A stretch of DNA of 64,000 bases from an uncultured Parafilimonas sp. (GTDB lineage Bacteria; Bacteroidota; Bacteroidia; Chitinophagales; Chitinophagaceae). The notes beneath the pieces are model-generated. The model was not told the origin of the DNA. It saw nothing but the letters and a program-made list of their open reading frames with translations, and ran no database searches. Below, in pieces: positions 489 to 13,286 of this stretch (positions are counted from its first letter, which is position 1; every line of letters begins with the position of its first letter). Location of the stretch: assembly GCA_903882935.1 (NCBI GenBank), contig CAIRZB010000014.1, forward strand, positions 1 to 64,000. Reading direction: 5' to 3'. The translations under genes and the position numbers were made by a program.

Positions 489-1265
489 TTATGGCTGTTG
501 GCTAAAGAAGCCATCGGGGTAATTTACGCTCATTAAAAAAAGTCCGTCGCCGGGCACGGCAAAATCAACCAACGTACAATCCTGCGCCGCAATTATGCCT
601 TTAAACGTTTCTACTGCGTTTGGCAGCTTGCTAACCTTAAGCATGGTACCTACCAACCCGCGCACCATGCCCCTTAAAAATCTGTTACCTGTAACATGGT
701 AAGCTAGGCATCCATCCTGCGCCGCCCAAGCTGAGTGCTTGACTGTGCAAATAAACGTTTTAACCTCAGTATTGCGTTTTGAGAATGAGGTAAAGTCTTG
801 CTGGCCCAGCACCAAAGCCGCAAGCTCATTTAAACGTGCAACGTCTGTCGGGTATGGGTAATAATAGCCCCTGCCTGCCAAAAATGGGTTTTTATGTTGG
901 TATACTATGTATTTGTACTCCCTGCTAACGGCATCAAACCTGCAATGCGCACCTGCGGGCAGCGGGTATATGCCTACAATGGCTATGGGTGGCGGCAGCA
1001 TGGCATTTAAACTGTATACATGCTGGGCTGTAATATCAAAAGGTGCGTCAAAATGAAAATAATTTTGCAGGGCATGCACGCCAGCATCGGTGCGGGAGGA
1101 TCCTGTGAGCTTAAACCGCCCCATACCCGCCTCGGCCAAAGCCTTGCGAAAACGTGTTACCAATACGGTTTCAATTTCCCTTTGTATAGTATTGGCGTTC
1201 TCCTGCAACTGAAAACCACTGTATGGCGCACCATTGTAACAAACTTCAAGAAAATAACGGGGCAT
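489..1265 (-). CDS. truA: tRNA pseudouridine(38-40) synthase TruA
   Basis: TruA isomerises uridines 38, 39 and 40 of the tRNA anticodon arm to pseudouridine in the cytoplasm. The 258-residue length is normal for the family. The catalytic motif GSSRTDAGVHAL (residues 55-66) carries the nucleophilic Asp60, and the N-terminal MPRYFLEVCYNGAPYSGFQ matches the usual TruA opening. It lies 10 bases downstream of the DUF4476 gene on the same strand, so the two are probably co-transcribed, though no functional link is obvious. The three leftward promoters begin about 95 bases past its stop codon and serve something else. Confidence 0.96.
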   Translation of the reverse strand: MPRYFLEVCYNGAPYSGFQLQENANTIQREIETVLVTRFRKALAEAGMGRFKLTGSSRTDAGVHALQNYFHFDAPFDITAQHVYSLNAMLPPPIAIVGIYPLPAGAHCRFDAVSREYKYIVYQHKNPFLAGRGYYYPYPTDVARLNELAALVLGQQDFTSFSKRNTEVKTFICTVKHSAWAAQDGCLAYHVTGNRFLRGMVRGLVGTMLKVSKLPNAVETFKGIIAAQDCTLVDFAVPGDGLFLMSVNYPDGFFSQQP

Positions 1266-1275
1266 AATACATCCT

Positions 1276-2673
1276 CTATTTTAACATTGCCCTGAACGCT
1301 TCTTTATAATTGTTGTCAATCATATACTTTTCCAGTGCGCCAAAGTTGCCATAGTCATAAACCGATGGGTAAACCGTTTTGAAAAAAAACAGCCTTGCAT
1401 CATCTGTGGAAAAATAAGAGGCCAGTGCTTTAACCTGCTCTGTGGTAATACACTTGCCGTCCAGGTAATTTTTTGCAATGTTAGCCATTTCCGCTGCATC
1501 TTGCTCAAGGTATATTTTGCGCTTTAATTTTTCCAAGCCACTGGCATTTAACATATTTTGGCAACCTGTTTTAGTGGCTAACACGGCTATTACATTGGTA
1601 TTTGGGTTTTGCGGCAAATTGGCAATGGCCGGTGGGCTGCCCGCCCCCAAACCACTAACCATTGTTGTATCACCCGTTGCCGGGTTTGTTTTTACCTCCA
1701 CGGCATGCAGGCTAGTGTCGGCAGCCTGTGCAACAACAACATCTTTTTTGTTAAAAAAGGGGTTGTTAACAGTACCCGCGGCCGATGAACTTGCTACAAG
1801 AGCCGTATCGGCAGCTTTTGGCCTCCGGCCGGTTAGCAAACTGTCCTCCCCGGTAGTGTTGGGTTTTATACTGGCAATAGCTTCCACCTTAACAGTGTCT
1901 TTCAAAGCTGTTGGCTGGCCCGCACCGGGGACGCTTACAGGTATTTCAGGTAGTTTATTTGCCACGGTTAGCGAACTATCAACGGCCGCATCGCCAGCCA
2001 TATCCGTTGTTGCGTATGTTACACGTACTGTATCTCCGTCGTCACCGTCAAAATCGTAAAAAACCATGTTCTTTGCACCGTTCGTTTCCTCATCCATCAG
2101 TTTTAATACGCCCTTGGTAGTACCGCTGTAGGTAGTGCCAAAGTCGCCTTGTTGCGGCATTTGGCCAACATCTGCAACACCCTGCCCTTCAATTTTATCG
2201 CTGTATACCCAAACTGTGGGCTTTAGCAAATCGCTATCATCAGCCACTTGGGCCAGCATTAGCGCAAAACCGTTTGTGGCGGGGGCGGCCCTACCCTCGG
2301 GCTCCTCACTGTCCCATAGGTCGGTGGAAGCTTGTACCACTTGGCCGTTGCCTACATTTCGCAACACCCAGCCAGCTTTGCCAAGGTTTTTCAATACATA
2401 GCTGGCATCATCCTTGCCCACAACACACGTAAAACTCTGCGCGGCAAGTGTATTTGGGGCAAAACCGACCAATACCTTATAATTACCAGCCGTAAGATTG
2501 GGGATTTTAACCAAGCCATTTTTTGAAGCGGTAACGTTGCCACCGTTCACCCGCACGGTAAAAGCCAGTTTATCGGCTGATTGTACCGCAATAAAATGCT
2601 GGGCCTGTAACCTTGCGCCGCAATAAATACAGCCCATGGCAACTAAAAGGCAAATTATGAGGCTTTTTTTCAT
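1276..2673 (-). CDS. Secreted DUF4476-domain protein
   Basis: A 465-residue exported protein of unknown function. It has an N-terminal signal peptide (MKKSLIICLLVAMGCIYCGARLQAQ), a beta-rich region (about 30-130) that looks like a small carboxypeptidase-regulatory-like fold, a long Thr/Ala/Val-rich low-complexity middle (130-370), and a helical C-terminal domain (about 375-465) with the DUF4476 pattern: a Cys near the start, LEKLKRKIYLEQDAAEMANIAKN style helices, and a YDYGNFGALEKY motif near the end. DUF4476 proteins are common envelope proteins in Bacteroidetes with no established role. The divergent M1 peptidase gene shares its upstream region. Confidence 0.75.
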   Translation of the reverse strand: MKKSLIICLLVAMGCIYCGARLQAQHFIAVQSADKLAFTVRVNGGNVTASKNGLVKIPNLTAGNYKVLVGFAPNTLAAQSFTCVVGKDDASYVLKNLGKAGWVLRNVGNGQVVQASTDLWDSEEPEGRAAPATNGFALMLAQVADDSDLLKPTVWVYSDKIEGQGVADVGQMPQQGDFGTTYSGTTKGVLKLMDEETNGAKNMVFYDFDGDDGDTVRVTYATTDMAGDAAVDSSLTVANKLPEIPVSVPGAGQPTALKDTVKVEAIASIKPNTTGEDSLLTGRRPKAADTALVASSSAAGTVNNPFFNKKDVVVAQAADTSLHAVEVKTNPATGDTTMVSGLGAGSPPAIANLPQNPNTNVIAVLATKTGCQNMLNASGLEKLKRKIYLEQDAAEMANIAKNYLDGKCITTEQVKALASYFSTDDARLFFFKTVYPSVYDYGNFGALEKYMIDNNYKEAFRAMLK

Positions 2674-2999
2674 GAATTCAGGCTCAATTTAAACAAAACT
2701 ACTGCAAAGGCACCACTGGTTGCACAAAAGCGGTACAGTAACAACACACAAAATAATATTTGCCACCCCCAAAACGCCTAAATGCCCCACAAATTAAACA
2801 CAAGTATTACCAATAAAGGCCTATAAATTCTTCAATTTTGTACACTACTCCACCAGCAGGCCTTTATCTTCGCTTATTTAATACGTATAAACGTGCCTGC
2901 AAGTTTACTACGGTTAGCAATTATTTAGTTTTAACCTTTTATAAAGTATTGGTTAATGCAATTTCGCAGCCTGTAGGCTTGACAAGAAAATTTTAATGA
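2674..2999. other. Divergent intergenic region
   Basis: This 326-base stretch separates two divergent genes. A minus-strand TGCCTTTG at 2705-2712 is a plausible -7 box for the DUF4476-truA pair but lacks a well-spaced -33. I see no convincing promoter for the M1 gene, and no open frame or strong hairpin. Confidence 0.4.
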
Positions 3000-5483
3000 A
3001 TGAAGAAACTATTGCCCTTTGTTTGTTTGCTGAGTGCTTACGCCGGCTTTGCCCAAGTTGTGGTAAAATCGAGCAGGAACCCCGCATGGAAAAAACTGTA
3101 CCGTGAATCTGCTGTAAAAATCAACGATTTGGTTGATACCAAGCTTGATGTAAGCTTCGACTTTAACAAACAATACCTGTATGGCAAGGAGTGGGTTAGC
3201 TTGCGTGCACATTTTTACCCTACCGACAGCCTTACGCTGGATGCCAAGGGAATGAACATTAACGAGGTTGCACTGATGAAAGACGGTGTTAAAACCCCTT
3301 TGCAGTACAAGTACGACAGCACCCAACTGTACATTACCCTAAACAAAACCTACACCAGCAATGAGCAATATACTATATACATTGATTATGTATCGAAGCC
3401 GAATGAGCTTAAAGCAGTGGGCAGTGCTGCCATAACCGACGCCAAGGGCCTTTACTTTATTAACCCCAAAGGCGAGGACAAAAACAAACCGACCGAAATT
3501 TGGACACAGGGTGAAACCGAATCGAACAGCGTTTGGTTTCCCACCATTGACAAGCCCAACCAAAAAACCACCCAGCAAATTGCAATGACGGTTCCCGACA
3601 AATATGTTACCCTTAGCAACGGACTGCTGGTTTCGCAAAAAAAGAACACCGACGGTACGCGAACCGACACTTGGAAGCTTGACCTGCCCAACCCGCCTTA
3701 CTTGTTTTTTTTGGGCGTGGGCGACTATGCGATTATAAAAGACAGCTACAAAGGCAAGGAAGTGAACTATTACGTGGAAAAGGAATACGCCCCGGTAGCC
3801 CGGAGGATATTTGGCCTAACACCAGAGATGATGGGCTTTTTCTCTGCCAAGCTAAACGTTGAATACCCTTGGCCAAAATACGACCAAATTACAGGAAGAG
3901 ATTATGTGAGCGGTGCCATGGAAAACACCACCGCCACCCTGCATACCGATGCCCTGCAACAAAATGCCCGGCAACTGGCAGACGGCAACAGGTACGAAGA
4001 TTTTATTTCGCACGAACTCTTCCACCAATGGTTTGGCGACCTGGTTACCTGCGAAAGCTGGAGCAATATTACCGTGAATGAAAGTTTTGCCGACTACAGT
4101 GAATATTTGTGGCGGGAATACAAGTACGGGAAAGACGATGCCGATGAGCTGAACCATAAATCCATGCAGGACTATTTAGGCTCAGCCGGGGAAGACAAAG
4201 ACTTGGTGCGCTTTTACTACCGCGACAAAGAGGATTTGTTTGATGCCGTAAGCTACAACAAGGGCGGTAATATACTGCACATGCTGCGCAACTATTTAGG
4301 GGATGATGCTTTTTTTAAAGGCTTAACCCTATACCTTAACACCAACAAGTTTGGCAACGGCGAGGCCCAGCAACTTAGGCTGGCGCTGGAACAAGTGAGC
4401 GGCCGAGACCTTAACTGGTTTTTTAACCAATGGTACTACGGCAGCGGCCAGCCCGAACTTGACATCAGTTACGATTACGACCCCGCCACACAAACGGCCA
4501 AAGTATATGTTAACCAAAAACAGGAAGGCGATAAGGTATTCCGGCTGCCCTTTGCCATTGATGTTTATACCAACACGGGTAAAAAAAGATACAATGTTTG
4601 GATGAATGATAAAACCGACACGTTTGCCTTTAATGCCAACACCAAGCCGAACTTAATTAATGTTGACGCAGACAAGATATTGCTGGCAGAAAAATACGAC
4701 CATAAAACCCTTGCAGAGTATGCCTACCAATACAGTTTTGCAGGCAACTACGTTGACAGAAGGGAAGCGGTGGACGCAGCAGTAGACAACTTTGAAACCG
4801 ATACTGCCAAAACCCTTTTGCTAACGGCTTTGGGCGACAAGCGGCCCGGCCTACGCAGGTATGTGCTGGAACACCTAAAGGCTGACCAACTGAACAGCAG
4901 CTTTATAACTGCCATTGAAAAAATGGCTAAAACTGACACCAACAGCTTAGTACGCGCAAGTGCAATTGAATTGTTGGGCGAATTAAAAAACAAAGTGTAC
5001 ACCGAGTTTTTTTTGAATGCCACAAAAGACTCATCGTACACCGTGGCAGGGGCAGCACTTACTGCCTTGGCCGCCATTGACAACGGCAAAGCCGTTGCCC
5101 TACTACCTGCGTTGAAAAAAGACGCAAGGGACGAGCTGGCCAACAGTATTGAAGATGTGGAGATACTAACCAAAACAGATGCGGATTTTGATGATATGTA
5201 TACCAAGTTTACCGGCCAAAGTATTGTAAAGAAATTTGAAGGTGTTTTTACGTTTATTACCTACTTGGCCAATGTAAAAGAAGTAAACAACTTTAAAAAA
5301 GGCATTGACGAAGTACTATCGTTCGGCGAAAAAAGTGCCACCTACGGCCCGGGGTTTGCCGATGCCATCAGCAATGCGCTGGGTGAACTGAAGGAGAAAA
5401 AAAACGACGCAAAAAAAAACGCAGGCCAGCTGGAAAAAGCAATTAAAGAAGAGATTGCCTACTTAACCGCCAAACTAAAGTAA
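3000..5483 (+). CDS. M1 family aminopeptidase with C-terminal HEAT-like domain
   Basis: A secreted zinc aminopeptidase of 827 residues. It has a signal peptide ending near FAQ, an N-terminal beta saddle domain, the substrate-binding GAMEN motif (305-309), and the zinc site HELFHQW (His338, Glu339, His342) with the third ligand Glu361 in the VNESFADY segment, the exact HEXXH-(18)-E spacing. Residues about 590-827 are helical HEAT-like repeats, as in many Bacteroidetes M1 enzymes. It probably trims N-terminal residues from peptides in the periplasm. Start ATG at 3000 gives the signal peptide directly. It has its own terminator and is monocistronic. A second, shorter M1 enzyme is at 14060. Confidence 0.94.
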   Translation: MKKLLPFVCLLSAYAGFAQVVVKSSRNPAWKKLYRESAVKINDLVDTKLDVSFDFNKQYLYGKEWVSLRAHFYPTDSLTLDAKGMNINEVALMKDGVKTPLQYKYDSTQLYITLNKTYTSNEQYTIYIDYVSKPNELKAVGSAAITDAKGLYFINPKGEDKNKPTEIWTQGETESNSVWFPTIDKPNQKTTQQIAMTVPDKYVTLSNGLLVSQKKNTDGTRTDTWKLDLPNPPYLFFLGVGDYAIIKDSYKGKEVNYYVEKEYAPVARRIFGLTPEMMGFFSAKLNVEYPWPKYDQITGRDYVSGAMENTTATLHTDALQQNARQLADGNRYEDFISHELFHQWFGDLVTCESWSNITVNESFADYSEYLWREYKYGKDDADELNHKSMQDYLGSAGEDKDLVRFYYRDKEDLFDAVSYNKGGNILHMLRNYLGDDAFFKGLTLYLNTNKFGNGEAQQLRLALEQVSGRDLNWFFNQWYYGSGQPELDISYDYDPATQTAKVYVNQKQEGDKVFRLPFAIDVYTNTGKKRYNVWMNDKTDTFAFNANTKPNLINVDADKILLAEKYDHKTLAEYAYQYSFAGNYVDRREAVDAAVDNFETDTAKTLLLTALGDKRPGLRRYVLEHLKADQLNSSFITAIEKMAKTDTNSLVRASAIELLGELKNKVYTEFFLNATKDSSYTVAGAALTALAAIDNGKAVALLPALKKDARDELANSIEDVEILTKTDADFDDMYTKFTGQSIVKKFEGVFTFITYLANVKEVNNFKKGIDEVLSFGEKSATYGPGFADAISNALGELKEKKNDAKKNAGQLEKAIKEEIAYLTAKLK

Positions 5484-5508
5484 AACAAGCCGGCAAATTA
5501 TTACCCCG

Positions 5509-5556
5509 CCCCGGCGTACATAAAGCCTTTGGCCTGATGCACGCCGGGGTTTTACA
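5509..5556 (+). terminator. Terminator of the M1 peptidase gene
   Basis: CCCCGGCGT and ACGCCGGGG form a stem around a loop that itself contains GCCTTTGGC, followed by TTTT. It starts 26 bases after the stop codon. Confidence 0.7.
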
Positions 5557-5670
5557 TGCATGGCAAGACCGGTTTTTACCGGCATTAATGTAAACCGCCT
5601 ACAACCAAGCCACTTTTTTACATTCTTCTTATATTGAAGCATTTTTGCGTAACCCACCCAATGCATTTGC

Positions 5671-6183
5671 ATGAAAAATAAACTTACCAGCATTTTTACC
5701 AATGGGCTACCCTGGGGTATGGCCTTTTTTGTGTTGGCTTACGCTATTGGTTATGGGGGAAATATTGGACAAAATAATACATTAAAAATAGCTGGGTTTA
5801 TAGCTATCGCTGCGCTGCTGGCCAACGGGTTGCTGTATGGCAGGTTTTCAAAGTCGCAAAAAAAATTGGAAAGCCTTTCTATAATTCTCAACGATACAGA
5901 ATCATTATTGTTGCATGCACCTGCCAACCATTTAATTGAAGGCAACTTGATGCCGGGCAAGTTGTTTTTAACCGACAAACGGCTGGTGTTTACTACTTTT
6001 AAGGCAGGCGAAAATGGGCAACGAGTGTATGAATGGGATGCAGCAACCCTTACACCACAAGGGTTTTACAAATCAATTTGGAACGCGGGCGGGGAATTTC
6101 TGCTAAAACCCGAGGGCGATATTGCTATAATGTTTGAAGTAAATAGGCTTAAACCGTGGAAAGAAGCTTTAAAGGGGGGATAA
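5671..6183 (+). CDS. Small membrane protein with GRAM-like cytoplasmic domain
   Basis: A 170-residue protein. Two hydrophobic segments (about 14-30 and 38-57) form a membrane hairpin. The remainder is a soluble domain with the pattern 'LMPGKLFLTDKRLVF', typical of GRAM or bacterial PH-like domains, followed by WDAATLTPQGFYKSIWNAG. No catalytic residues are visible. Its role is unknown; the fold suggests membrane or lipid association. It sits between the M1 terminator and the promoter of the structured RNA, so it appears to be a single-gene unit. The family assignment is tentative. Confidence 0.55.
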   Translation: MKNKLTSIFTNGLPWGMAFFVLAYAIGYGGNIGQNNTLKIAGFIAIAALLANGLLYGRFSKSQKKLESLSIILNDTESLLLHAPANHLIEGNLMPGKLFLTDKRLVFTTFKAGENGQRVYEWDAATLTPQGFYKSIWNAGGEFLLKPEGDIAIMFEVNRLKPWKEALKGG

Positions 6184-6203
6184 TGAACCCGAAACATCAT
6201 TTT

Positions 6204-6231
6204 TTTGCTCAAAATAAATTTTGTAATTTTG
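6204..6231 (+). promoter_or_regulatory. Promoter of the structured RNA
   Basis: A TAATTTTG -7 box (6224-6231) is preceded by TTTG (6204-6207) with a 16-base spacer, slightly short. It predicts an RNA start near 6236-6238. There is no open frame between this promoter and the terminator at 6281-6306. Confidence 0.5.
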
Positions 6232-6236
6232 AATTT

Positions 6237-6307
6237 CTAGACCTGAGGGACTGTACGGTTCCTGATGGCCCGGAACAATCCCTCGGTTTGGAACCGGGGT
6301 TTTTTAT
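6237..6307 (+). ncRNA. Compact structured RNA convergent with DUF3800 gene
   Basis: A roughly 70-base RNA with its own promoter and terminator. Stem P1 pairs GAGGGA (6245-6250) with TCCCTC (6279-6284). Inside it P2 pairs GTTCC (6258-6262) with GGAAC (6272-6276) around a 9-base loop. The terminator hairpin pairs CCTCGGTT (6281-6288) with AACCGGGG (6292-6299) and is followed by six T. P1 and the terminator share 6281-6284, and GGTTCC (6257-6262) could instead pair with GGAACC (6290-6295), so alternative folds or a pseudoknot are possible. Weinberg and colleagues described several RNA motifs associated with DUF3800 genes; whether this is one of them needs a covariance-model search. Confidence 0.6.
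6281..6306 (+). terminator. Intrinsic terminator of the structured RNA
   Basis: An 8-bp stem with loop TGG is followed by TTTTTT. It ends 3 bases from the stop codon of the convergent DUF3800 gene, so the DUF3800 transcript must run antisense into this RNA unless it stops very early. Confidence 0.75.
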
Positions 6308-6308
6308 T

Positions 6309-7061
6309 TTATAAACGTATAATCCCGTCATCATCACCAACCATTGGCTTAAAACAAATCGGATGTAGTTTCCTTGCAAATATTCTGTCCGCTTGGTATT
6401 TTTTTCGGGAAGCCTGCGAAAATTCCTTTTCTTTTAAGGTATGGTTCAACACGTCGGCTGCCTGTATAAAAATAGAATCAAATGACACCCTAAAAATAGG
6501 GTCTTCCAATACCCAGCCTATGCGCACATGGGGAATTGTTTGGCCGCTCGCACCTGTACCTAACAGTTTTCTAACATGGCTGTTAATAGTTTTTTCGTTA
6601 GCCCTGTCAAAAAAGAGTAGGCCATTAACCTCGTGTACTTTCAAAAATTCATCAAATGCTTGGTATAATTTTGTTATGCCTGCCGTTAGGTATTCATCAG
6701 GATGCAGTTTACTTTTAGTTTTATCAATGGTAACTGCAACTATAGCAAATGCTGTATGCTGGCCTATTGTTTCGGCAAATTGTTCAATCAGTTTCCACCT
6801 GTCCGCAACCCTTATTTGGGTGTATTCCTTTATTTTATGTGGGTCTATCATTTCTGAGCAATGAAATTCAATGTCATATGGCAGATAGCTTTCACGGGCA
6901 ATCTTCTTTCTGAAACTTTTAAGAACATCTAAGGAAATTTTCCACTTATTGGCGGCAACAATGAGGCCGCTTAATATAAAATAGGGCGTACCGGTTTTTT
7001 GTGGTGTTGCCACATTATAAGCTCCGCAATCACCGCTTTCATCAATATAACAGAAATACAT
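6309..7061 (-). CDS. DUF3800 domain protein
   Basis: A 250-residue protein of the DUF3800 family. The N-terminal signature YFCYIDESGDCG (residues 2-13) is the hallmark, with acidic residues resembling the first carboxylate cluster of RNase H-like folds. Further family features are the EFHCSEM segment (residues 64-70), the central LLFFDRANE strand (about 148-156), and the FIQAADVLNHT helix near residue 200. The molecular function is not established; these genes are frequent in mobile and defence-rich loci. Its 3' end is convergent with, and almost touches, the structured RNA at 6237-6307. A likely -7 box TAGATTTTG lies just upstream of the ATG. Confidence 0.85.
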   Translation of the reverse strand: MYFCYIDESGDCGAYNVATPQKTGTPYFILSGLIVAANKWKISLDVLKSFRKKIARESYLPYDIEFHCSEMIDPHKIKEYTQIRVADRWKLIEQFAETIGQHTAFAIVAVTIDKTKSKLHPDEYLTAGITKLYQAFDEFLKVHEVNGLLFFDRANEKTINSHVRKLLGTGASGQTIPHVRIGWVLEDPIFRVSFDSIFIQAADVLNHTLKEKEFSQASRKKYQADRIFARKLHPICFKPMVGDDDGIIRL

Positions 7062-7287
7062 TATTTCGATTTAGGCGTTCAAAATCTACAGCAATAAAGA
7101 TAACGGATAAATTATTTTGTGCAAATGTGTTTTTACGTTCCCCATACGGCCATCCCTAAGGCCGAGTGTGGCCTCAAATATTCAACTCCCCCTCCACCCC
7201 TACACCCCAGCACAGTTTCCCCCGCCAAATATTTTGCGCCAAATCCCTTCCTACCTATCTTTCCACCACCAATAATTTCCATAACAA

Positions 7288-10125
7288 ATGAACATCAAGA
7301 GGCGCCAGTTTTTAAAGCTCACTTCACTAACGGCCGCAGGCCTGCCATTGTTACAATATGCCAAAGCAGCACCACGCCACAGCGTGGCCGCAGCAGAAGA
7401 TACGGTGTTTAACATGTTTGCCACCCCGCTAAACATACACCGGCCGTTTGTACGCTGGTGGTGGAACGGCGACCGCGTTACCAAACACGAGGCGTTGCGC
7501 GAACTGGATGTAATGAAAGCCGCAGGCATTGGCGGCGTGGAAATAAACCCCATAAAATGGAACGAGAACGCCGACGCCATCGGCATACCGGAGCTTACCT
7601 GGGGCAGCCCCGAATGGCTGGATGTGGTGGAGGCCACCGTTAAGGGTGCAAAGGAAAAAGGTATTGTATGCGATATGATTGTCGGCTCCGGCTGGCCCTA
7701 CGGCGGCGAACATGTGCCGCGGAACGAGCAGAGCCAGATTGTGATACTCGGCACCAAAAACCTGGAAGGCGGCAAACAATACAGCTTTACGGCAAAAGAA
7801 CTGCTGGCCAGCGTGGAACCGCCGAGCAACTACGAGAATAAAGTAAGCGAGCTGTTTACCCTGCGCCTGGCACCGGCGGAGATGGCGGCCTTTACGCCCG
7901 GCACCAGCCTTGACGCGCAGTTGAAAAACGATACCATCACCGTGGACGTGCCGGCTGGTGCGCATGTGCTGTACTACCTTATAAAGTACACCGGCTTCCA
8001 GCGGGTTATACAGGGTGCCTTGGGTGCGCGCGGCCCGGTGATAAACCATTACCAGCAAAGCGCGGTGCAAAACTACCTTGAACATTTTGGGGAACTATTA
8101 ACCGGCAGGTTGGGGCCGTTGAACAATTATTTCAGGGCATTTTTTACCGACAGCATCGAGCTGGAGGGCGCCAACTGGTGCGATGATTATTTTCAGCAGT
8201 TCAAACAACGGAGGGGCTATGACCTGGAGCCATACTTCCCCTACATATTGTTTAAGGTAGGCGAAATGGGCAATGCCGTAAACGAAAAATACGGCACCAC
8301 GTTTTCACCCGCGTTGCAGGCCACCATCAACCGCATACGGTACGATTTTTTAGAAACTAAGCAGGCCCTGTTCCAGGAGCGTTTTGTGGGCACCTTTGTG
8401 GCATGGTGTAAAAAGCACGGCGTAAAAAGCCGCATGCAAGCCTATGGTATGGACTGTAACGCCATTGATGCCACCCTGCAGTTAGACATACCCGAGTGCG
8501 AAACTTGGACCTGGGTGCCGCAGATTGAGGAGTTTGACGCAAGCCCCGATAATTTTAGCGGCCGCAACTACACGATGGCCAATAAGTTTGTTTCCAGCGC
8601 CGCGCACCTGGCGGGCAAACAGGAAATAAGCTGCGAGGAAAACACCAACACCGGCCAAATATTCAGTGCCACTTTGGAGCGGGTAAAAATAACAGGCGAC
8701 CAAAGCATCCTGTCTGGCGTAACGCACAGTGTGCTGCACGGGTTTAATTACACTCCGCTGGAAGCCCCTTTCCCCGGTTGGTTGCGCTACGGCAGCTTTT
8801 TTAACGAGCGCAACCCTTGGTGGCCCTATTTTAGGCTGTGGAGCGATTATAAAGCCCGCGTATCGTCGCTGCTGATGAATTCGGTGATGCAGGCAAATAT
8901 TGCCGTACTGCACCCGCTGGCAGACCTGGCGAGCAAATACGGCTTTCAACGCGACCCGTTCCCTAACGTTAGCTACCCGCCTTACGTGCATAAAGTATGG
9001 GAGGCCATACACCAAAACGGCAACGGTTGCGACTATGTGTCGGAGCAGGTACTGCAAAACGCCGCCAGCAGTAACGGCAGCCTAACCTACAACGCCCGCC
9101 GCTACCAAACCCTGGTGCTGATTGAGGTGGAAACCATGCACCCCGAAACCGCCAAAGCCATCAAGCAATTTGCCGATGCGGGCGGCAAGTTGGTATTTAT
9201 CGGCAAGGCCCCGCACTTTTCATCCGGCCTAACCGACTATAAGGAAAAAAGCAAGGAGATTGAAAACATCAGCAACAGCATATTAAAGCACCACCCAAAA
9301 ACAGCAGGCATAGTGCCCGCCCCCGGCGATGATTTAATCACCTGGTGGCGCGGCATACAGCAGCAATTTGGCATAACGCCGTATGTAACCATTACCCAGC
9401 CCACCATACACGTAAACCAGTTGTATTATAAAAGCGGCGACAGGGATGTTTTCTTTTTCAGCAATTACAGTGCGGCAAACCCATTCAAATTCACGGCCAA
9501 GTTTAATTTCATAAACGATAAAACGCCTTGGATTTGGAACGCAGAAACAGGCGAGCGTTTTTTATTCCCACGTAACACCGAAGGAGATTTGGAAATTTAC
9601 CTCGGCCCCTCTGAGTCTAAATTCATCGTGTTCGATACAACGCAGGACGGAGAAACATATAACAGTGTTGATATAATGGGCAAGGCACAAATAGGTATCC
9701 CCGGCCCATGGCAGTTAACGCTACATCATTTAAACAGCACCACCCAAAAAATAACATTGTCCGAATTAACTGACCTAAAGTTGCGCCCCGACACGCAGAA
9801 TTTTTCGGGCACAATTAATTACCATAAAACCATTAACCTTACTGATACCAACGGCAAAACGTACTTGACGCTCGGCCACATTTACGATGTTAGCGAGTTG
9901 GAAGTAAACGGCCGCCCCCTGGGTGCCAAATGGTATGGTGACCATATTTACGACATCAGCAAAGCCATACAGCCCGGCGAAAACTTCATTACCATAACCA
10001 TTACCACCACTGCCGGGGCATATACCAAGTCGCTTAAAAACAACAAAGCCGCCCAGGAATGGAGCGACGGCGATTTGTACGGCCCAACCGGGTTAACCGG
10101 CGGGGTTAATATATTCAAGGGGTAG
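7288..10125 (+). CDS. GH106-like glycoside hydrolase (putative alpha-L-rhamnosidase), Tat-exported
   Basis: A 945-residue enzyme matching the glycoside hydrolase family 106 type of alpha-L-rhamnosidase. The N-terminus KRRQFLKLTSLTAAG is a twin-arginine export signal, meaning folded export to the periplasm. The catalytic barrel opens with RPFVRWWWNGDRVT and GIGGVEINP, and continues with VGSGWPYGGEHV; later segments include the EENTNTGQ strand and a C-terminal jelly-roll like domain (about 790-945) with DVSELEVNGRPLGAKWYGDHIYDI. Substrate specificity cannot be read from sequence, and the catalytic pair was not located with certainty. It stands alone with a strong terminator and no polysaccharide-utilisation partners nearby. 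Confidence 0.82.
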   Translation: MNIKRRQFLKLTSLTAAGLPLLQYAKAAPRHSVAAAEDTVFNMFATPLNIHRPFVRWWWNGDRVTKHEALRELDVMKAAGIGGVEINPIKWNENADAIGIPELTWGSPEWLDVVEATVKGAKEKGIVCDMIVGSGWPYGGEHVPRNEQSQIVILGTKNLEGGKQYSFTAKELLASVEPPSNYENKVSELFTLRLAPAEMAAFTPGTSLDAQLKNDTITVDVPAGAHVLYYLIKYTGFQRVIQGALGARGPVINHYQQSAVQNYLEHFGELLTGRLGPLNNYFRAFFTDSIELEGANWCDDYFQQFKQRRGYDLEPYFPYILFKVGEMGNAVNEKYGTTFSPALQATINRIRYDFLETKQALFQERFVGTFVAWCKKHGVKSRMQAYGMDCNAIDATLQLDIPECETWTWVPQIEEFDASPDNFSGRNYTMANKFVSSAAHLAGKQEISCEENTNTGQIFSATLERVKITGDQSILSGVTHSVLHGFNYTPLEAPFPGWLRYGSFFNERNPWWPYFRLWSDYKARVSSLLMNSVMQANIAVLHPLADLASKYGFQRDPFPNVSYPPYVHKVWEAIHQNGNGCDYVSEQVLQNAASSNGSLTYNARRYQTLVLIEVETMHPETAKAIKQFADAGGKLVFIGKAPHFSSGLTDYKEKSKEIENISNSILKHHPKTAGIVPAPGDDLITWWRGIQQQFGITPYVTITQPTIHVNQLYYKSGDRDVFFFSNYSAANPFKFTAKFNFINDKTPWIWNAETGERFLFPRNTEGDLEIYLGPSESKFIVFDTTQDGETYNSVDIMGKAQIGIPGPWQLTLHHLNSTTQKITLSELTDLKLRPDTQNFSGTINYHKTINLTDTNGKTYLTLGHIYDVSELEVNGRPLGAKWYGDHIYDISKAIQPGENFITITITTTAGAYTKSLKNNKAAQEWSDGDLYGPTGLTGGVNIFKG

Positions 10126-12486: not shown

Positions 12487-12886
12487 ATTATAAATAACTC
12501 TTCTACAAACTGTTGATAATCAGTGTTTTAAAAATATGTCTCTTTTATTGTTTGGGAAAGCCAAGCCAATCTAACCGTCATAGCGAGCCTGCGCGTATGT
12601 TAACCGAATCTAATTTAAGCCAAAAGCGGGCGTGGCTATCTGCCCAAACACGAAACGTTTTTTGCACGCAGCCATCTATCACACACAGCACATTCCACAC
12701 GGCGCAATACCTCCTGTCGGATACAGGCAGATAGCCACGCCGCTTTTAGGCAGCATGTGGCTTTGGTTTGCGTGTGCACGGCTCGCTATCACGGTGCATA
12801 TGTATATTCGTCTGCAAATAATTGGTCACCAACAGACGAAAAAGGGTTATACCCATTTGTTGCCGCGTTCGCAAGGAAGGATGAAT
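12487..12886. repeat. Tandem 400-bp palindromic element, copy 1
   Basis: The first of two direct copies with a 398-base period. Each copy contains nested inverted repeats: ACCGTCATAGCGAGCC near its left end against GGCTCGCTATCACGGT near its right end, and AAAAGCGGGCGTGGCTATCT against AGATAGCCACGCCGCTTTT inside that. A small hairpin TTCGTCTG/CAGACGAA follows. There is no coding frame of any conviction. It looks like a non-autonomous palindromic element rather than a gene. Confidence 0.8.
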
Positions 12887-13286
12887 TATATATTACCCTT
12901 CTACAAACGGTTGATAATCAGTGTTGTTAAAAATATGTTTCATTTATTGTTTGGGTAAGCCAAGCCAATCTAACCGTCATAGCGAGCCTGCGCGTGTGTT
13001 AACCGAATCTAATTTAAGCCAAAAGCGGGCGTGGCTATCTGCCCAAACACGAAACGTTTTTTGCACGCAACTATCTATCACAGGCGGCACATTCCACACG
13101 GCGCAATACCTCCTGTCGGGTAAAGGCAGATAGCCACGCCGCTTTTAGGCAGCACGTGGCTTTGGATTGCGTGTGCGCGGCTCGCCATGACGGTGCATAT
13201 GTATATTCGTCTGCAAATAATTGGTCACCAACAGACGAAAAAGGGTTGTACCCCTTTGTTGCCGCGTTCGCAAGGCCGGATGAATT
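12885..13286. repeat. Tandem 400-bp palindromic element, copy 2
   Basis: The second copy, differing from copy 1 by scattered substitutions and very few indels. Differences fall in both arms, with some compensating. It ends about 85 bases before the lipoprotein gene. Together the two copies occupy almost the whole gene-free stretch 12399-13370. Confidence 0.8.

Follow-up and report, generated by a model that had tools for sequence, protein, structure and literature searches.

A DUF3800 gene and a small convergent RNA as a two-gene mobile cassette in Parafilimonas

Sequence comparisons indicate that positions ~6218 to 7061 of a contig from an uncultured Parafilimonas sp. (NCBI GenBank assembly GCA_903882935.1, contig CAIRZB010000014.1; positions 1 to 64,000 of the forward strand were analyzed and are termed the window here) are a two-gene mobile cassette, composed of a DUF3800 gene and a ~70-nucleotide (nt) RNA gene with its own promoter. 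In the reading that we favor, to which we give about an even chance, the RNA would restrain the DUF3800 protein, a putative defense nuclease, in trans, and the RNA copies of phages would be decoys. The components are listed below; R1 denotes an earlier model of the RNA family and R2 a later one that includes newly found members, the window being in the training set of both.

6204 to 6231, plus strand: RNA promoter, read directly from the sequence (TTTG at 6204 to 6207; −7 box TAATTTTG at 6224 to 6231)
6236 to 6305, plus strand: structured RNA gene of ~70 nt, from UCUAGACC to the U tract (90.6 bits with R1 and 86.8 bits with R2 at 6236 to 6304)
6236 to 6243, plus strand: 5′ strand of stem P1, pairing with 6267 to 6274
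6247 to 6262, plus strand: P2 hairpin (GGGAC, loop UGUACG at 6252 to 6257, GUUCC)
6267 to 6274, plus strand: 3′ strand of P1, from RNAalifold and the 13-member alignment
6281 to 6299, plus strand: P3 hairpin CCUCGGUU/AACCGGGG (inverted repeat 6281 to 6288/6292 to 6299), which with the following T6 (6300 to 6305) makes an intrinsic terminator
6309 to 7061, minus strand: DUF3800 gene (250 amino acids; PF12686 match), convergent with the RNA

The RNA-DUF3800 unit and its boundaries

The gene product belongs to the DUF3800 family (PF12686; E value, 7.7e-13; 49.8 bits against a cutoff of 21), and 3 bases lie between the T6 that ends the RNA and the TAA stop codon of the gene (6309 to 6311). This convergent arrangement recurs in other genomes. 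When 59 related genomes were searched at the DNA level, the one strong match besides the window was in G022 (85% identity over the RNA; G and L numbers are our labels for genomes and loci); six other genomes gave short matches only, none above 40.1 bits. At the protein level, 147 related genomes returned G022 only (72% identity), and 12 relatives came from a protein scan of the genome collection, four of them close (L020 to L023; 63 to 72% identity) and eight weak (L024 to L031). The RNA was present, convergent at the DUF3800 stop, in all five close relatives, i.e., G022 and L020 to L023; among the eight weak ones none had an R1 match at an E value of ≤1. RNA-first searches added two loci of the same arrangement, G1021 and, with a distant DUF3800 protein (33% identity), G407. 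The RNA-plus-DUF3800 loci are therefore eight: the window, G022, L020, L021, L022, L023, G1021, and G407 (L096). A tree of 33 DUF3800 proteins gave the close clade of the window a support of 0.999 and placed the G407 protein with those of L127, L103, and L109, whose stops carry other RNA-like units.

Homology to window positions 5000 to 8500, as determined by blastn, extended from 6223 to 7061 in G022, 6235 to 7073 in L020, 6224 to 7065 in L021, 6233 to 7061 in L022, and, in two pieces, 6218 to 7061 in G1021; in L023 it ran from 6216 to the end of a contig cut inside the gene. In five loci the left edge (6218 to 6235) is within the RNA promoter or coincides with the first RNA base, and the right edge (7061 to 7073) is at the DUF3800 start. 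For seven of the eight loci (all but L023), the 1.5-kilobase flanks on both sides had no mutual match by blastn at 1e-3 or by tblastx at 1e-5. Since the flanks are unrelated and the homology is bounded by the RNA and the gene, the two together are the unit that was transferred. For the window cassette no clean empty site was found: the congener G001 has the right-hand gene without a matching left flank, and G002 has only 611 bases upstream.

Two observations concern the gene itself. The DUF3800 gene of L022 is interrupted by an in-frame stop, and the RNA beside it is intact; an error is possible in this metagenome assembly. The window's own genome (G000) carries another DUF3800 copy, which is broken and contains several stops (G000:C28:42242-42923; L218), with no family RNA nearby.

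In G407 (L096:1-2963) the cassette interrupts a type ISP restriction-modification (R-M) gene at the boundary of its methylase and specificity parts, the upstream gene matching an Eco57I methylase and the downstream gene a type ISP specificity domain. Both parts are in a single open frame in G432, G120, G238, G389, and G182. The gap between the matched ends measures 9 to 21 bases in four genomes, 129 in G432, and about 900 in G407, where it holds the DUF3800 gene plus the RNA. Expression of both halves may persist in G407, where they have a stop and a start of their own. The setting is similar to that of the anticodon nuclease PrrC, described in PMC2610378 as silenced by a genetically linked R-M enzyme. 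In G407 the cassette splits the R-M gene, and PrrC differs in having an ABC-ATPase domain. We know of no RNA partner of PrrC. Nesting in an R-M gene was seen in one of the eight loci.

A conserved fold in the RNA

On an alignment of nine sequences, the fold proposed as conserved is a stem P1 (UCUAG-A-CC with GG-C-CYGGA) that encloses P2 (5 bp), followed by a separate P3. It leaves 96.1% of the alignment cells paired, and its covariation score was reached by none of 500 shuffles. RNAalifold, unprompted, gave nearly the same fold, recovering P1 except for the 6239/6271 pair. In a 13-member alignment, made by aligning to the model and hence leaning toward it, the paired cells amount to 94.4% for P1 (2 pairs changed on both sides), 98.3% for P2 (all 5 pairs compensatory), and 96.2% for P3. 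In the window, 6239 × 6271 is an A × C mismatch and 6241 × 6269 is unpaired in the model, the 6239/6271 pair being open in 3 of the 13 members, window included. The P2 loop UGUACG is present in 9 of 9 sequences of the smaller alignment and in 10 of 13 of the larger one, with AGUAGU in L094 and other loops in L096 and L149. In L072, L149, and L287 no U tract follows P3, yet the hairpin persists (C-G has become U-A in L287, and an A-U is re-registered in L072), so that P3 is more than a terminator.

The single-sequence fold of the window RNA is unexceptional (z of −1.23; 28 of 200 shuffles equally good). We judge the RNA gene to be real, beyond chance, on the basis of its conservation and not of that stability. 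An earlier note on this DNA, made from the sequence alone, had described a self-contained unit of about 70 nt ending 3 bases from the DUF3800 stop. Its promoter boxes, inverted repeat, and T6 are borne out; its two nested stems, for which it gave no coordinates and which we take to be the energy-minimum fold of the window RNA (6238 to 6250 with 6279 to 6290), are not. As a candidate functional structure this nested fold was rejected: its 12 outer pairs fill 79.6% of the cells across nine relatives, a value that 218 of 500 shuffles match. The third pairing suggested there, GGUUCC (6257 to 6262) with GGAACC (6290 to 6295), exists in the window and is lost in relatives (in the 13-member alignment its first strand is, e.g., GGCUUU in L020 and GACCUC in L054); the proposed switch or pseudoknot is unsupported too, resting as it does on the nonconserved nested fold. 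The comparison with other DUF3800 genes that the note had called for came out in its favor, the RNA being conserved there with compensatory changes in the stems of the conserved fold.

The promoter boxes TTTG and TAATTTTG are of the Bacteroidota −33/−7 type, with a spacing of 16 bases; TAnnTTTG is the Bacteroides −7 consensus according to PMC7366714. An exact TAnnTTTG stands 4 to 6 bases ahead of the first conserved RNA base in 8 of 14 family members, versus 1.5% of shuffled upstream stretches, and L022 and L186 have near-matches.

Rfam gave no family at gathering score anywhere in the window. The check that the note had proposed with the Rfam DUF3800 models was negative as well: neither a DUF3800 family nor the abiF RNA (RF03085) matched at an E value of ≤5 in window positions 6150 to 6400, L021, L096, or L054. 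The R1 match in the window's own genome is single, a DNA search giving no further RNA copy above 33.7 bits.

Occurrence of the RNA with and without DUF3800

R1 located the RNA in G000, G022, G258, and G407 among 396 genomes of the order and in 3 of 395 genomes of the phylum (G000, G022, and G484, the window's own genome included), two of these beside DUF3800. With R2, G000, G484, and G1021 scored above 80 bits among 395 genomes of the class. One further match in the order set, G159, was discarded (28.4 bits, overlapping the end of an unrelated gene), as were 13 of the 16 class genomes matched by R2 (23 to 27 bits; by eye, terminators or chance). G407, with 29.4 bits by R1, scored hardly above G159 and was retained because its match lies directly at a DUF3800 stop and preserves P1 and P3. 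The RNA lies beside DUF3800 in G022, G407, and G1021, and it is an orphan in G258 and G484, where no DUF3800 match was found at an E value of ≤0.01. DUF3800 itself is common (63 of the 395 phylum genomes; 30 loci retrieved) and the RNA is rare, so that the RNA belongs to a small part of the DUF3800 family. The G258 orphan (L181:10088-12203) is a divergent RNA with the loop AGUAGU, next to which are small peptides bearing a GG-type leader and, farther on, an apparent peptidase-containing transporter (by eye).

Among viral contigs, pattern scans detected the RNA in five lineages: L054; L061/L064 and L072/L074 (the same element within each pair); L149; and L287. The weaker matches are L149 (33.3 bits with R1) and L287, the weakest, with 38.1 bits by R2 and a divergent 5′ half. 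No DUF3800 match was detected in the six viral records searched (L054, L061, L064, L072, L074, and L149; four lineages), the L287 record not having been searched. Together with the orphans in G258 and G484, these records imply that the RNA would act without the gene in cis. Pattern matches lacking the rest of the RNA were dropped by eye or by model score, L308 (23.4 bits) among them.

Ten viral proteins were compared with PHROGs, which identified tail fibers in the L074 record, a tape-measure match in the L061 record, and a MazG-like protein and a glutathionylspermidine synthase in the L149 record. The L054 record gave glycosyltransferase families only, and its viral nature therefore rests on IMG/VR. 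In L149 the RNA sits among five tRNA genes, 75 bases past the nearest. In L072/L074 (about 700 to 3700) it lies upstream of a DUF2828 gene apparently interrupted by a LAGLIDADG frame, and a separate terminator-like inverted repeat starts after the RNA. A plasmid collection had no protein match and no convincing RNA match (best E value, 2). A phage collection gave 14 records with protein matches of ~25% identity and no RNA (one match at an E value of 4), and a viral protein scan detected no relative of the window DUF3800.

Other RNAs were seen at DUF3800 genes. An Rfam scan of 40 loci gave DUF3800-RNA matches only in L105 (from G407) and L126, both to DUF3800-VIII (RF03075). In L105 this RNA (2315 to 2380) converges on another DUF3800 gene, which extends to 2310, with 4 bases between the RNA and the stop; the L126 copy comes after a DUF3800 gene plus a second gene. 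The DUF3800 proteins of both loci match the PADLOC candidate PDC-M04A, and the second gene of L126 matches PDC-M04B. The candidate defense pair PDC-M04A/PDC-M04B seems to have an RNA part. At L126:1486-2977 the two genes are followed by the convergent DUF3800-VIII RNA, with a SIR2-like gene upstream. DUF3800-VIII resembles the window RNA in being a small (64-nt) family convergent at a DUF3800 stop but differs in structure: there a long outer stem encloses a hairpin and the U run follows at once, whereas in the window RNA P1 encloses P2 and a separate P3 terminates. The earlier note had linked the RNA to those described beside DUF3800 genes, and in this it agrees with what was found, the window RNA being conserved, covarying, of the same general kind as the Rfam DUF3800-linked RNAs, and convergent in place like DUF3800-VIII in L105.

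A second candidate RNA, with a core of the GGATTGGG...CGGTCG type, runs convergently into the DUF3800 stop most clearly in L120, L121, L122, and L125 and more loosely in L107 and L117; no Rfam DUF3800 family matches there. At the DUF3800 stops of L103, L109, L110, L116, L118, and L127 there are other, distinct hairpin-like units in convergent orientation, and some of these have a TAnnTTTG box. In L028, next to a gene weakly similar to the window DUF3800, an abiF RNA match (L028:3905-3941; 39.9 bits, cutoff of 37) lies on the opposite strand, 4 bases from the stop (3900).

A rough control of 3′ ends compared 30 DUF3800 genes with an identifiable frame, out of 38 loci, with 187 other frames. An opposite-strand box plus T tail was present at 7 of 30 DUF3800 genes versus 5 of 187 other frames (P = 2.4e-4) and, when genes of the window's type were left out, at 4 of 27 (P = 0.016). 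For the T tail alone the corresponding figures were 15 of 30 versus 47 of 187 (P = 0.008) and 12 of 27 (P = 0.063), the last of which makes the T tail by itself not significant for other DUF3800 types. Neither box nor T tail was present at 12 of the 30.

To our knowledge, the DUF3800-linked RNAs have been listed without a known function. A 2017 paper reportedly listed DUF3800 motifs, said to be numbered I to XI. Of the Rfam DUF3800-linked RNAs, I and IX are named in PMC11701678. Our literature search found no description of the present RNA, its viral copies, or its function, and the RNA may be identical with a DUF3800 motif missing from Rfam.

Elsewhere in the window, two frames at 12513 to 12734 and 12921 to 13133, about 400 bases apart, have very similar translations and are probably a duplicated repeat.

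Predicted nuclease, proposed function, and alternatives

The AlphaFold2 model of the DUF3800 protein is of moderate quality (mean predicted local distance difference test score of 69; residues 170 to 213 below 50). The top Foldseek match was RNase HII (E value, 5.6e-3; probability, 0.99), with nothing at an E value of ≤0.001. VIA-align superposed the model on RNase HII (1eke) with a Z of 8.3, a value near 8 that can reflect a common arrangement, and a root mean square deviation of 3.9 over 158 residues; its top rows were RNases H2, HII, and H3. An RNase H fold is independently reported for DUF3800 in PMC10910872. The modeled protein is RNase HII-like and probably a nuclease. Among the Foldseek and VIA-align rows listed, led by RNase HII, no ToxN/CptN/TenpN-type chain was seen, and a sequence search of solved structures gave nothing useful.

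On the reading we favor, the DUF3800 protein would be an RNase H-type nuclease, toxic when unrestrained and probably directed against phages. The RNA would bind it in trans through P1/P2, with the usual UGUACG loop, the GGAnCAAnUCC linker, and P3, and would keep it inactive; in phages that have the RNA but not the gene, the RNA would serve as a decoy antitoxin. We infer action in trans on the protein because the one-to-one linkage, the conserved fold, the viral RNA-only copies, and the nuclease-like protein fit it together. A wider claim, possible but on balance doubtful, is that DUF3800 nucleases as a class are defense effectors, each with its own head-on 3′ RNA, and that tailed phages carry this RNA alone as an antitoxin decoy. 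As a guess going beyond this claim, the GUA present in several types of the loop (in UGUACG and AGUAGU, and drawable as GUAA in L287) may mean that the RNA imitates a substrate loop cut by the nuclease.

There are precedents for such a pairing. According to PMC12373285, the abiF RNA neutralizes the AbiF toxin by direct binding, which makes it a tested case of an Rfam RNA motif turning out to belong to an RNA antitoxin; AbiF and its RNA likewise are a single protein with a small structured RNA, and the RNA is of another family by the negative RF03085 search given above. A phage pseudo-ToxI is reported to escape ToxIN through RNA mimicry (PMC3475682). ToxIN thus shares with the cassette a nuclease restrained by RNA (a restraint proposed here) and a phage look-alike RNA, but ToxI is a repeated pseudoknot, whereas the window RNA is a single copy with P1/P2/P3 and the protein model is RNase HII-like.

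Several points weigh against restraint by the RNA. Known type III antitoxins are encoded upstream of their toxin, cotranscribed with it, and usually made of tandem repeats; the RNA here is single copy and convergent and has its own promoter boxes, so that this layout is not reproduced. In the window RNA the nested fold (−29.0 kcal/mol) exceeds the conserved fold (−19.0 kcal/mol) in stability by 10 kcal/mol, and 4 of the 14 family members (L061, L072, L094, and L149) lack a recognizable −7 box. The window protein matches no PADLOC model at an E value of ≤1, PDC-M04A included; among four relatives of the same type, three had no PADLOC match at an E value of ≤0.01 and L186 had a weak one to DruF (E value, 0.0047). 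No defense island was evident by eye among the neighbors of L020 to L023. The viral records may be fragments, and their RNA copies could serve another purpose.

The one-to-one linkage would be equally compatible with a nuclease that depends on the RNA as an obligate cofactor to become active or to find its target, the phage copies then being nonproductive competitors. RNA-guided nucleases with RNase H folds are established, and a Cas12a2 sub-branch is linked, in PMC10910872, to TPR-DUF3800 proteins, which share DUF3800 with its RNase H fold and sit in CRISPR loci; around the loci read here no CRISPR locus was noticed, no search having been aimed at them. We consider this alternative unlikely. 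No variable, guide-like stretch of the OMEGA/TnpB type was seen, the RNA being conserved from its start to its terminator (both ends as predicted), and there are genomes and viral records with the RNA only. Restraint is judged likelier than activation because a guide-like segment is lacking and the RNA-only viral copies are most easily explained as decoys. Those same copies, and the orphans in two genomes, are what a stand-alone regulatory small RNA, or another RNA carried by DUF3800 genes by happenstance, would produce; seven DUF3800 loci besides the window nevertheless have the RNA at the stop in differing surroundings, and the RNA is otherwise rare in the phylum set, which makes such an origin distinctly improbable.

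The earlier note had seen in the convergent layout an RNA antisense to read-through of the DUF3800 mRNA. A purely cis-acting antisense or transcription-interference element would accord with the orientation of the genes and with the lack of a U tract after P3 on the minus strand, but antisense action needs no conserved fold, and the stem changes are compensatory. Given the conserved structure, and the presence of the RNA in two genomes and six viral records where no DUF3800 was found, antisense action is unlikely to be the point, and we rate a cis-only role as very unlikely. It is scarcely conceivable that the unit is terminator and promoter debris with chance similarity: P3 does resemble common terminators, and many of the low-scoring R2 matches in the class looked like plain terminators, yet the stems ahead of the terminator, P1 and P2, are conserved and covarying, the flanks are not conserved, and we regard the covariation as having refuted this explanation already.

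The present cassette gives DUF3800 biology a compact case to work with: a mobile two-gene unit with a covariation-backed RNA fold, a nuclease-like protein model, nesting in an R-M gene, and viral RNA without the gene. It sharpens the question of whether the RNA silences the nuclease and whether phages use the RNA to escape. Should both be the case, it would add a class of protein-RNA defense and another instance of counter-defense by RNA mimicry.
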